Positions 6,028 through 35,422 of a stretch of 41,136 nucleotides of DNA are shown here, in pieces. The translations under genes were made by a program, and so were the position numbers. The notes below the pieces were generated by a model. It was not told where the DNA came from and made no database searches. It saw only the letters and a list, made by a program, of their open reading frames with translations. Every line of letters begins with the position of its first letter. The first letter of the stretch is position 1. Source of the DNA: Candidatus Chisholmbacteria bacterium RIFCSPLOWO2_01_FULL_49_14 (GTDB taxonomy: Bacteria > Patescibacteriota > Microgenomatia > UBA1400 > Chisholmbacteraceae); the NCBI GenBank assembly GCA_001816915.1, contig MHCL01000002.1, positions 5,009-46,144 of the forward strand. The letters run 5' to 3'.

Positions 6028-6034
6028 GTTATTC

Positions 6035-14368: not shown

Positions 14369-14381
14369 CAGGTCGGACCTG
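14369..14381. repeat. Palindromic repeat core copy
   Basis: CAGGTCGGACCTG, a perfect inverted repeat with a single central base, lies about 20 bases before the TATAAT box of the MFS gene. It is the same core as in the large repeats at 24-35 kb. Confidence 0.8.
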
Positions 14382-24489: not shown

Positions 24490-24556
24490 TTGCAGGTCGG
24501 AGCTGCACGTCATCTGCAAGCCGCGGAACGCATGGCGCGGGGGAAAGTGGTAATCA
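24490..24556 (+). repeat. Array repeat A (short form)
   Basis: TGCAGGTCGGAGCTGCA is followed by the downstream module AGCCGCGGAACGCATGGCG, a G-run and AAGTGGTAAT. The internal modules found in longer copies are missing. It is the first copy of the array and lies just before the first toxin-antitoxin unit. Confidence 0.75.
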
Positions 24557-24627: not shown

Positions 24628-24900
24628 ATGTTACAAAGTATCAATATGTTAGACCTGCGAAGAAAGATCGGTGAAATTATTGATCAGACGCTTTATCGCA
24701 AGGAACGCTTTCTCGTCAAGAGAAAAAATAAGCCGGTCGCAGTTTTAGTGCCGCTTGAGGACTATGAACTCTTCATGGCCAACGATGAGGATATCGAATT
24801 GTACTCCGACAAGCGCATCTCAGCATTCGCTCATCAAGATCGGTTATCGAAAGAGGAACAACAACTCACCGTTCGTCTGCTTCGGAAATCCAAGACATGA
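24628..24900 (+). CDS. Type II antitoxin, Phd/YefM-like
   Basis: A 90-residue antitoxin. The N-terminal half (MLDLRRKIGEIIDQTLYRKERFLVKRKNKPVAVLVPLEDYE) is the Phd/YefM DNA-binding fold; the C-terminal half is the flexible toxin-binding tail. It would neutralise the PIN toxin encoded immediately downstream and, with it, bind the palindromic operator overlapping the promoter. AGGAG lies 5 bases before the ATG. Its stop overlaps the toxin start as ATGA. Confidence 0.85.
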   Translation: MLQSINMLDLRRKIGEIIDQTLYRKERFLVKRKNKPVAVLVPLEDYELFMANDEDIELYSDKRISAFAHQDRLSKEEQQLTVRLLRKSKT

Positions 24901-25328: not shown

Positions 25329-25339
25329 ATTCAGTAAAA

Positions 25340-25408
25340 GCAGGTCGGACCTGGCAGGCGTATGAACCAGATATAATCTGGTTTTTGCCTGGGGGAAGTG
25401 GTAAAATT
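25340..25408 (+). repeat. Array repeat B
   Basis: GCAGGTCGGACCTGGCAGGCG, a second hairpin ACCAGAT-ATA-ATCTGGT (25366-25382), then GCCTGGGGGAAGTGGTAAAAT. The same hairpin type after GGCAGRCGTATGAA recurs in repeat D. Confidence 0.8.
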
Positions 25409-26396: not shown

Positions 26397-26440
26397 AAGT
26401 CAAAATGTTTGTCGCGCAAAAAACCGAACTGTTTTCTAAA

Positions 26441-26631
26441 TTGCAGGTCGGACCTGCAATAACTATCGGCCGTGTACAGGTCCTATCGAGTCGAACTCGA
26501 TTGTGGCCAAGTCAAACTTGGCTGGCTGGCCTGTACGGGAAATCCGGAGGGATTCCCAGTGGCGTAGAATCCTCCACGGGGTAAGCTTGAGTATTCCACT
26601 CCTGGAGTCCCTGCCTGCGCAGGCAGGGATG
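26441..26631 (+). repeat. Array repeat C
   Basis: TTGCAGGTCGGACCTGCAA, then AACTATCGGCCGTGTACAGG with the palindrome ATCGAGTCGAACTCGAT and a second AAGTCAAACTT hairpin inserted into the GTACAGG...CCTGTAC stem, followed by CGGGAAATCC. It ends with the palindrome CCCTGCCTGCGCAGGCAGGG. The remaining bases to 26761 hold nothing recognisable. Confidence 0.78.
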
Positions 26632-27441: not shown

Positions 27442-27487
27442 CGCCACCTTTTCCTGTCTGCCTTTCAACTTCAGGAGTGAAAGAAGT

Positions 27488-27634
27488 GCCAGGCCCAGTC
27501 TGACTGGGTTGTCGAGGTTGACTCGATCCGACCTGGCAGACGTATGAATCAGATCATATCTGGTTTTAATACTTCAGCTACGTGCAGTACGCGCGCTCAT
27601 TCAACTATGCTTCGCCTGGGGGAAGTGGTAAAAT
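27488..27634 (+). repeat. Array repeat D
   Basis: TGCCAGG with CCCAGTCTGACTGGG and CGAGGTTGACTCG modules, then CGACCTGGCAGACGTATGAA and CAGATCATATCTGG, finishing with GCCTGGGGGAAGTGGTAAAAT. It combines the CCCAGTC module of the copy at 18933 with the trailing part of repeat B. Confidence 0.8.
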
Positions 27635-28263: not shown

Positions 28264-28295
28264 AAAACGTGGAAGATCCCAAGACTTTTTGTAAA

Positions 28296-28575
28296 TTGCA
28301 GGTCGGATCGAGTCAAACTCGATTGCCCTTTCGGATCGAGTCGAACTCGACTTTTTCCTGCAGGAATACCCGATTTGTCTAGAGAATACCAAACCCCTGC
28401 CCGCCAATCGCTGCGCTCAAGGCGCTGGCAGGCGGGTGGTTTGGAAGGGCATACAAGTTCGACCTGTACGAAATACCCAAGGTGTGGTCAAGAGTGCACC
28501 TCTAAGGTGAAAGACCGCAACATATCCCTATATCCCTAGGTGTCAAGGCTATTCCACCTCCCAGGTGGAAGACAC
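28296..28575 (+). repeat. Array repeat E
   Basis: TTGCAGGTCGG with two ATCGAGT palindromes in a row, a long CCTGCCCGCCA...TGGCAGGCGGG hairpin, then a decayed TGTACGAAATACCC module, TGCACCTCTAAGGTG, AAAGACCGCAACATATCCC and CCACCTCCCAGGTGG. It reads in the plus direction although the next gene is on the minus strand. Confidence 0.8.
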
Positions 28576-28594
28576 CGATGGAAGAAACTGAGAT

Positions 28595-29525: not shown

Positions 29526-29804
29526 TGTGCCAGGTCCGGCCTGTACGGGAAATCCCGAGGTGTCAAGGCATTTCCACCCCCGGAGTGGAGGAATTTCCCT
29601 AGGTGTCCCTCCAAAGGCGGGCAGGCTTGAGGTTACCACCTCCCAGGTGGAAGATGTGCCAGGTCCGACCTGGCAGGCGGGATCTGGAAGGCGGATTAGG
29701 GACAGGACGGAGGGGTACGACCCGCCTGCGTTGAAACTACGGCGAGGTAAACAGTATTAACAAATATTCTCTGGAACTGGGCTGGGGGGGAAAAAGTGGT
29801 TTTA
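29526..29804 (+). repeat. Array repeat F
   Basis: GTGCCAGGTCCGGCCTGTACGGG-type start with GGGAAATCCCGAGGTGT, the CCCTAGGTGTCCCTCC module, CCACCTCCCAGGTGG, a second CCAGGTCCGACCTGG, then GGGACAGGACGGA, TTGAAACTACGGCGAGGTAA, ATTCTCTGGAACTGG and a G-run. It lies between two minus-strand genes but keeps the plus polarity. Confidence 0.82.
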
Positions 29805-29829
29805 CAGCTCTACTGATGAACTATTGAAA

Positions 29830-30576: not shown

Positions 30577-30755
30577 GTACAGGTCGGATCTGCAAGAACT
30601 ATCGGTCGTGTACAGGTCCGACCTGTACGGGAAATCCCGAGGTGTTCTCAAGATTGCACCTCTAAGGTGAAAGACCGCACAATGCTCAAGCGAGCACTAC
30701 GACAAGCTCAGTGTGAACAAGCCGCGAAACGCATGGCGAGGGGGGAGTTGTAATA
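30577..30755 (+). repeat. Array repeat G
   Basis: GTACAGGTCGGATCTGCAAGAACTATCGG, then TGTACAGGTCCGACCTGTAC, GGGAAATCCCGAGGTGT, TGCACCTCTAAGGTG-type hairpin, and after a gap AAGCCGCGAAACGCATGGCGA with a G-run and AGTTGTAAT. Plus polarity between two minus-strand units. Confidence 0.82.
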
Positions 30756-30787
30756 GGGGTCTAGGAAAATCGGAAATGAGAAGCCTA

Positions 30788-31346: not shown

Positions 31347-31825
31347 TTGCAGGTCGGACCTGCAAAGGCGTAAATCCAGAGGTAAACTGGAAAAGCAGGT
31401 CGGACCTGCAATAACTATCGGGTCGTGTACAGGTCCGGCCTGTACGGGAAATCCCGAGGTGTTCTCAAGGCTGCACCTCTAAGGTGCAAGAGGGAAGAGC
31501 GTATCATCCTCGAACGTCAAGGCTTTACCGTTCCCGGAACGTCTAGGCGTAACCCGGAACGTCAGGGCGAAAACTCCCTAGGTGTCCCTCCAGAGGCGGG
31601 CAGGCAAGGCTATTCCACCTCCCAGGTGGAAGACGGGGCTACGAAGGGACAGGGTGGAAGAGGTGCGGCGCGCCTGCGTTGAAACTACGGCGAGGTAAGC
31701 AGTACTAACGCATATTCTCTGGAACTGGCCTGCCTGCCCGCTTGAGTTTCCGGCTGCGAAAACGGCTAGACAGCAGTTTTGAGCAAGCCGCGAAACGCAT
31801 GGCGTGGGGGGGGAAGTGGTAAAAT
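31347..31825 (+). repeat. Array repeat H (most complete copy)
   Basis: The longest copy, with every module in order: two CAGGTCGGACCTG palindromes, GTGTACAGGTCCGGCCTGTAC, GGGAAATCCCGAGGTGT, TGCACCTCTAAGGTGCA, several GGAACGTCWAGGC units, CCCTAGGTGTCCCTCC, CCACCTCCCAGGTGG, GGGACAGGG, TTGAAACTACGGCGAGGTAA, GCAGTACTAAC, ATTCTCTGGAACTGG, AAGCCGCGAAACGCATGGCG, a G-run and GAAGTGGTAAAAT. The last element is the -10 box of the following gene. Confidence 0.85.
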
Positions 31826-32638: not shown

Positions 32639-32683
32639 ATGATCCTCAAACGTCAAGAAAATTCCGTTCTCGGAACGTACTGA

Positions 32684-32931
32684 TGTGCCAGGTCGGACCT
32701 GCAAGAACTGCGTGTACAGGTCCGACCTTTACGGGAAATCCCGAGGTGTTCTCAAGATTGCACCTCTAAGGTGAAAGACCGCAACATATCCCTAGGTCTC
32801 AAGGCTATACCACCTCCAAGGTGGAAGACACTCTCCCCAATTTTTCAGAGAATTTGAACAATCAGAATCCTTTGCAGGTCGGACCTGCAAGAACTATCGG
32901 TCGTGTACAGGTTCTATCGAGTCAAACTCGA
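32684..32931 (+). repeat. Array repeat I
   Basis: TGCCAGGTCGGACCTGCA, TGTACAGGTCCGACC, GGGAAATCCCGAGGTGT, CACCTCTAAGGTG, AAAGACCGCAACATATCCC, CCACCTCCAAGGTGG, then a second TGCAGGTCGGACCTGCA-AGAACTATCGG with the ATCGAGTCAAACTCGAT palindrome. It appears to be two partial copies joined. Confidence 0.82.
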
Positions 32932-33284: not shown

Positions 33285-33526
33285 CGTGCCAGGTCCGACC
33301 TGGCAGTCGCCTGGCAGGCGGAATCTAGAGAGCGCATGCAGGGACAGGACGGAAGGGCGGGGCCCCACTTCTCCGCCAGTGGGCGGATACGCTGGGGGCA
33401 CCGCAGTACTAACGTATATTCTCTGGAACTGGCCTGCCTGCCCGCTTGAGTTTCCGGCTGCGAAAACGGCTAAATAGCAGTCTTGAGCATGCAGCGAAAC
33501 GCATGGCTGGGAGGAAGTGGTAATAT
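33285..33526 (+). repeat. Array repeat J
   Basis: GTGCCAGGTCCGACCTGGCAG, GGGACAGGACGGAAGGGCGG, GCAGTACTAACGTATATTCTCTGG, the CTTGAGTTTCCGGCTGCG module, GCGAAACGCATGGCTGG and GAAGTGGTAATATT. Its second half is nearly identical to that of repeat H over about 110 bases. Confidence 0.83.
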
Positions 33527-35007: not shown

Positions 35008-35073
35008 ACCGGAGAGCTCGATTGGGCACCACTATCTCAGAGTTTGGTGGACTTGGAACATTATATCCAAAGG

Positions 35074-35422
35074 CGTACAGGTTCGACCTGTACGGGAAAT
35101 CCCGAGGTGTCTAGAGAAAGCCACCCCCGGAGTGGAAGAAATTCCCTAGGTGTCCCTCCAGAGGCGGGCAGGCAAGGCTCTTCCACCTCCCAGGTGGAAG
35201 ACGTGCCAGGCCCAGTCTGACTGGGTTGTCGAGGTTGACTCGATCCGACCTGGCAGGCGTGGATACGGCGAGGCGAGGCCCGCCTTCGTTGAAACTATGG
35301 CGAGGCGATGCCCGCCTTCGCCGAGGCTCCGGCGGGCGAGGCCATCCTCCGTCAAGACTACGGAATGGTACAACAGTACTAACACAAATTCTCTGGAACT
35401 AGCCTGGGGGAAGTGGTAAAAT
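35074..35422 (+). repeat. Array repeat L
   Basis: CGTACAGGTTCGACCTGTACGGG, then GGGAAATCCCGAGGTGT, CCCTAGGTGTCCCTCC, CCACCTCCCAGGTGG, the CCCAGTCTGACTGGG module with CGAGGTTGACTCG, TTGAAACTATGGCGAGGC, an extra CCTTCGCCGAGGCTCCGG palindromic segment, CAGTACTAAC, ATTCTCTGGAACT, and AGCCTGGGGGAAGTGGTAAAAT. It is the last copy, between the JAB gene and the restriction-modification operon. Confidence 0.84.

Follow-up and report, generated by a model that had tools for sequence, protein, structure and literature searches.

The window analysed here is the whole 41,136-nucleotide stretch (G000:C2:5009-46144) from a Patescibacterium whose 1.21-Mb genome (G000) is held in 29 contigs. Toxin–antitoxin genes are dense between positions 24628 and 34172. 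Repeat H lies among them at 31347-31825, and between 24.4 and 35.4 kb almost every intergenic space contains a partial copy of it. The gene units between these composites are mostly toxin–antitoxin genes, including three PIN toxins with Phd/YefM- or RHH-type partners, two Gp49/HTH pairs and one HicA toxin, and the ORF sequences suggest that a type I restriction system follows them. The composites are always in the + orientation, and several adjoining genes lie on the minus strand. Outside the island, P-type hairpins, single or split, are found at 6031, 14369, 15647, 18185, 18934 and 20302, right after or between genes.

Modules of repeat H and its sister copies

H reads from left to right as P, (A), P, P-g, b, c, T/U/d, Y, X, S, N, E, all on the + strand. 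Its left end is a REPIN-like doublet, P-A-P (31347-31411), in which two TTGCAGGTCGGACCTGCAA-type hairpins surround a short hairpin; the doublet recurs at 80% identity at G000:C6:25046-25110. It is followed by P-g (31424-31457), a GTACAGGTCCGGCCTGTAC hairpin and then a CGGGAAATCCCG hairpin, and by the type-1, REP-like module b (31458-31490), with the leader CTCAAGGC and the hairpin GCACCTCTAAGGTGC. As a 73-nt block, P-g-b shows 99% identity between the copies at 30607 and 32711 and 90% identity in H. Module c (CGAACGTCAAGGCTTTACCGTTCCCGGAACG and onward, 31506-31566) is also REP-like, and T/U/d (31576-31635) is a CCCTAGGTGT / CAAGGC..CCACCTCCCAGGTGG hairpin split by U (CCCTCCAGAGGCGGGCAGG). Module Y (CGCCTGCGTTGAAACTACGGCGAGG, 31671-31695; copies at 29723 and 35281) forms no clear hairpin, and module X (AGCAGTACTAACGCATATTCTCTGGAACTGGCCTG, 31698-31732; copies at 29752, 33404 and 35374) occurs only in this array. 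Next come S (31736-31808), a 73-nt covarying hairpin with CYTG at its 5' foot (covariance model R1), and E (GGGGGAAGTGGTAAAAT, 31809-31825), the right end of the composite.

The sequence-only reading had described H as about ten modules, nearly all self-complementary, and as free of ORFs. There are indeed about ten modules and most are hairpins, the exceptions being Y, X and E, none of which is a clear palindrome. H is in fact overlapped by open frames of 85-103 aa; the two that were tested have no Pfam match.

The U motif (CCTCCAGAGGCGGGCAGGC) also recurs at scattered sites in other families of the order (G021, G010, G007, G015 and G002; loci L025-L031); at several of these loci it sits within a different palindrome, such as ATTCCGGA..TCCGGAAT. 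A sequence at 30680-30720 of the window, CACTACGACAAGCTCAGTG, resembles the CTTCGACAAGCTCAG palindrome, which is present also in locus L008.

The other composites, about 11 in number and likewise intergenic and on the + strand, carry subsets of these modules. The copy at 24.5 kb (24490-24556) reads P-N-E, and that at 25.3 kb (25339-25407) reads P-A-E. At 26.4 kb (26440-26550) the composite is P-a-(two hairpins inside P)-g, at 27.5 kb (27486-27634) it is a P split by two hairpins, A and E, and at 28.3 kb (28295-28581) it is a split P, P, b and d. The copy at 29.5 kb (29526-29806) is P-g-e-T-U-d-P-Y-X with a degenerate E, and the one at 30.6 kb (30577-30756) is P-a-P-g-b-N, also with a degenerate E. 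Downstream of H, c-P-P-g-b-d lies at 32.6 kb (32645-32831), P-a and a half P with a second hairpin at 32.9 kb (32870-32931), P-X-S-N-E at 33.3 kb (33286-33526), and P-g-e-T-U-d-(split P)-Y-X-E at 35.1 kb (35072-35422). A repeat search and a search of the organism's own genome both recover these copies, and the best E-values of H elsewhere on the contig are 1.6e-45 and 8.5e-34.

That the copies are subsets in one order, as had been proposed, is borne out when module order is compared among them. Across the twelve composites, with only the first P of each counted in the module lists, 3 order conflicts out of 176 were found, against a mean of 48 and a minimum of 24 in 20,000 shuffles, none of which was as good. 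Conflicts fall to 0 of 102 when H is left out, and random junctions were not seen. H also folds better than its dinucleotide shuffles, with z-scores of -6.9 as DNA and -6.0 as RNA. With conflicts far below the shuffled values and strong folding, the observation on H is confirmed.

Hairpin families beside RAYT-like transposase genes

The genome encodes four Y1_Tnp genes, and on inspection each of the four has a palindrome family of its own on both sides, as do three Y1_Tnp genes of related genera. A shared word of at least 12 bases links 8 of 9 flank pairs of these RAYT-like genes, compared with 3 of 300 control ORFs. The encoded proteins exceed the Pfam Y1_Tnp cut-off, and their HUH and Y motifs are invariant. 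Their sole NCBIfam match is NF047646, REP-associated tyrosine transposase, at 38-51 bits, below the cut-off of 80. Among PDB structures, the RAYT profile matches E. coli TnpA-REP best (4er8, E 0.009), with the alignment running through the H-x-H and YIxxNP motifs.

Several of the flanking families recur as modules in H or in its sister copies. The family at the Y1 transposase gene on contig C4 (L052:3714-4403), GTCAAGGC..ACCGTTCCCGGAACGGT, is module c. The family at the C6 gene, CCCGAGGTGTCAAGGCATTTCCACCCCCGGAGTGGA, is module e, which lies at 29550 and 35097 in two sister copies; the upstream copy of this family is a 44-nt match at 95%. The C16 family, TTGACAGGGTCCGACCCTGTCA, has the same form as the P hairpins of H. 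Type-2 palindromes of the P-A-P form flank the C16 gene and two RAYT genes of G001, a genome of the same family as G000, and the C16 and G001 hairpins are of the same type as the CAGGTCSGACCTG units of H. The G001 flank families are GTACAGGTGCGACCTGTAC and ACCTTGAAAGGTCTGACCTTTCAAGGT, and P-g is near-identical to GTACAGGTGCGACCTGTACG, which flanks one of the G001 RAYT genes (L064). A CCCTAGGTGTCAAGG..CACTCCCGGGGTG hairpin similar to module d flanks the RAYT gene of genome G002 (L065). The remaining families are CCACATTTAATGTGG at the C7 gene, which is absent from H, and CCTGCAGGGCCAGGCCCTGCAGG at the RAYT gene of genome G012.

H is thus probably a composite spacer, a mosaic of several REP-like hairpin families with RAYT-like transposases as the likely mobilisers. 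It does not appear to be one element because the hairpin families have their own, independent distributions. The earlier suggestion of a non-coding mobile element was right in kind, in that modules of H match the palindromes flanking Y1/HUH transposase genes. Such transposases, encoded elsewhere in the genome, may move these hairpins by acting on folded single-stranded DNA.

Some findings count against this interpretation. No mobiliser is known for modules Y, X and E, and the RAYT scores under the NCBIfam cut-off also weigh against it, as do the low copy numbers: per genome there are 18 copies of CAGGTCSGACCTG, about 12 type-1 hairpins and 12-15 copies of S, short of a high-copy REP family. 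REPs usually exceed 100 copies per genome. Of the two tetranucleotides typical of the REP 5' foot, GTAG and CGTC, GTAG was not seen; the type-1 hairpins have CGTC/TGTC and then AAGGC, several bases ahead of the stem, and S has CYTG at the foot. Because of the low copy number and the differing tag, these families are REP-like and the canonical REP label is withheld.

Nested hairpins, a cassette joint and array growth

Three hairpins of the island are found in two forms, one empty and one interrupted by other hairpins. The GTGCCAGG/TCCGACCTGGCAG hairpin is empty at 29656 and 33286 and filled at 27486 and 35203. The GTGTACAGGTCC/GGCCTGTACGGG hairpin of P-g is empty at 31424 and filled at 26474, where two other hairpins split it (26474-26540). 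The CCCTAGGTGT/CAAGGCTATTCCACC hairpin is empty at 28534 and 32790 and filled by U at 29597, 31576 and 35144. At none of the three was a target-site duplication found. Insertion would be a simpler reading of these pairs than deletion, since exact restoration of a palindrome by deletion is unlikely. Nesting of REPs has precedents in Anabaena variabilis and Thermomicrobium (PMC3733652), and Stenotrophomonas has hybrid mosaics of two RAYT families (PMC2817692).

These pairs bear on the proposal that H is a single ancestral element of about 500 bp, mobile and non-coding, and the other copies its deletion derivatives. The consistent module order agrees with such descent, as does the fact that H carries most of the modules while X and E are confined to the island. 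Modules nevertheless stand alone at RAYT flanks and on other contigs, and some copies carry modules that are absent from H (e, and nested hairpins 1, 2 and 3). Palindromes are also intact where the nested module is absent, as expected before an insertion and not after a deletion. Descent by deletion from a single element is therefore unlikely. The proposal was only partly right: the ordered subsets stand, but several independent hairpin families are involved and some copies appear to differ by insertion of one hairpin into another.

Under the mosaic interpretation, new hairpins would enter intergenic sites and the loops of resident hairpins without target duplication, as the empty and filled pairs suggest. 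One ancestral composite may also have been copied along the 11-kb island with its toxin–antitoxin and defence genes, probably through recombination between the composite's own repeats, and each copy would since have gained and lost hairpins. Spread by recombination would explain the fixed order most economically, and recombination has been proposed for the spread of neisserial mosaics (PMC3898611).

A comparison with G001 gives a view of one joint. In that genome, a VapBC cassette (88% nucleotide identity) is joined directly to the 28.3-kb array, of which 28461-28571 is 97% identical in G001, and 1.85 kb present here is omitted. The joint lies at the P hairpin TGCAGGTCGGA. This joint at P, together with about 12 short gene units, many of them toxin–antitoxin, recalls an integron-like array in which the composites are attC-like recombination sites for cassettes. 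The hairpin sites between units share one orientation even though several genes face the other way, and P at the left end and E at the right end are recurrent. However, no TIGR02249 integrase scores over the cut-off in the genome or in 19 relatives, where only Xer-like partial matches occur, and RYYYAAC/GTTRRRY core boxes were not recognised by eye at the composite ends. Site size also varies from 65 to 480 bp, and the G001 VapBC unit has no E at its left boundary. With neither an integrase over the cut-off nor attC boxes recognised on reading the sequence, the integron was rejected as a very unlikely explanation. An integrase-free cassette system, in which hairpin composites mobilised by RAYT-type enzymes at the replication fork would serve as exchange sites and collect toxin–antitoxin and defence genes and S would be a new single-stranded DNA class of the order, is distinctly unlikely, if not quite to the same degree.

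The right-end module E resembles an extended -10 element (TGnTAAAAT). Exact copies lie at 25391, 27618, 31809 and 35406, in each case ahead of a + strand gene. E is degenerate ahead of minus-strand genes (29.8 and 30.7 kb) and ahead of genes with their own promoter match (24.5 and 33.5 kb); the gene after the E at 35406 also has its own promoter match. This small, post hoc pattern would fit a candidate promoter. For E, GGGRAAGTGGTAA has five exact matches in this contig and none without mismatch elsewhere in the genome. As mismatch-free copies do not occur outside the island, E was rejected as a genome-wide promoter motif.

The S hairpin and related systems

The S family was searched for with a covariance model built from nine copies. 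Of 88 genomes of the order, 10 contain it, with 12-15 copies here and 13 in G001; among 281 genomes drawn from the class there were none outside the order, the only matches falling in three genomes of this order. An exact 32-base pattern of S has no match in IMG/VR and, in species genomes, matches only Ca. Chisholmbacteria (MHCJ01000003.1) and one Patescibacteria MAG.

Compensatory changes, for which the sequence-only reading had suggested a test, were found in S. Among 31 distinct sequences, double changes are present at 21 of the 27 pairs, in an alignment fitted to the structure; the first, unfitted alignment also shows 8 double-change pairs. Paired cells make up 86.5%, against 31-41% in slid controls, and the outer stems differ in sequence. 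The CYTG 5' foot is present in 17 of 28 copies, against a background of 0.9%. Where |skew|>0.08, 29 of 31 S copies are on the C-rich (lagging) strand, and where |skew|>0.05, 30 of 34 are; GC skew stands in here for fork direction, and the copies are partly non-independent because some lie close together or at tRNA-Ser ends. The local skew of the window is too weak for H itself to be assigned to a replication strand.

These data can be set against the view that the spacers encode a structured RNA, such as a terminator, a cis-regulatory element or a small RNA. The strong RNA folding of H and the compensatory changes in S agree with an RNA, and hairpins do lie just after stop codons at 14369, 15647 and 20302. 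Yet neither the window, which also lacks tRNAs, nor the S copies at other loci gave any Rfam match, the composites keep the + orientation beside minus-strand genes, and few of the module hairpins have a T-tract. The orientation of S tracks strand skew and not the coding direction on the same contigs. An RNA is accordingly very improbable as the general explanation, and of the earlier idea of an RNA with conserved folding it is the folding that holds, for S, single-stranded DNA accounting for it better.

For S, strand-linked orientation combined with covariation favours a single-stranded DNA element over an RNA. IS200/IS605 elements insert into the lagging-strand template (PMC6006769), and this parallel supports the view that S behaves like a single-strand element. 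Their subterminal hairpins are also like S in having a conserved tetranucleotide 5' of the hairpin and a lagging-strand preference (PMC6006769), but no transposase gene was found adjoining S. The absence of S beside every RAYT examined counts against the mosaic interpretation.

Several S copies have unusual surroundings or forms. S abuts the 3' end of a tRNA-Ser gene in four genomes of the order (L081, L082, L083 and L085; match near 599-1574), and the copy at L086:1501-1573 lies close to the anticodon loop in an apparently incomplete tRNA-Arg sequence. Another copy is next to the group I intron at L055:2234-2454 (G000:C16, about 50.2 kb), which may lie inside a tRNA-like gene. Variants in L096 and L095 have about 52 extra apex bases or a missing apex.

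The closest known counterparts of the array are the REP/RAYT (TnpA-REP) REPtrons and BIMEs, which share short intergenic palindromes, a family of its own flanking each Y1/HUH gene, doublets, hybrid mosaics of different RAYT families and a single-stranded DNA logic (PMC2817692, PMC6006769, PMC8266576). The present families differ from these in their low copy number, in the lack of a visible GTAG, in RAYTs under the NCBIfam cut-off and in being nested in one another. Palindromic repeats within other palindromes are also seen in the GTAG-15 REPs of A. variabilis and the GTAG-23 REPs of T. roseum (PMC3733652); here, in contrast, both the host hairpins and their guests resemble families linked to RAYTs, and empty forms coexist with filled ones within 11 kb. 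Neisserial intergenic mosaic elements (dRS3/RS) likewise combine a small palindrome with other repeats beside exchangeable genes, and their arrays have been proposed as recombination sites (PMC3898611, PMC3733652). This likeness is one of layout, and numbers differ, with about 700 dRS3 per genome against some 12 fixed-order composites in one island here.

The tnpA-REP genes have been reported to favour larger genomes (PMC6006769), whereas the host here is a Patescibacterium of 1.2 Mb, and no paper linking REP/RAYT to Patescibacteria was found in searches of an open-access library. The mosaic interpretation would extend REP/RAYT-type mobile DNA from larger genomes to a reduced Patescibacterium. 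Several RAYT–hairpin pairs, together with empty and filled nested hairpins in so small a genome, provide testable substrates for single-stranded DNA insertion, and S provides a new searchable family with a replication-strand bias. Hairpin mosaics tied to toxin–antitoxin and defence units suggest how reduced genomes may exchange such genes.
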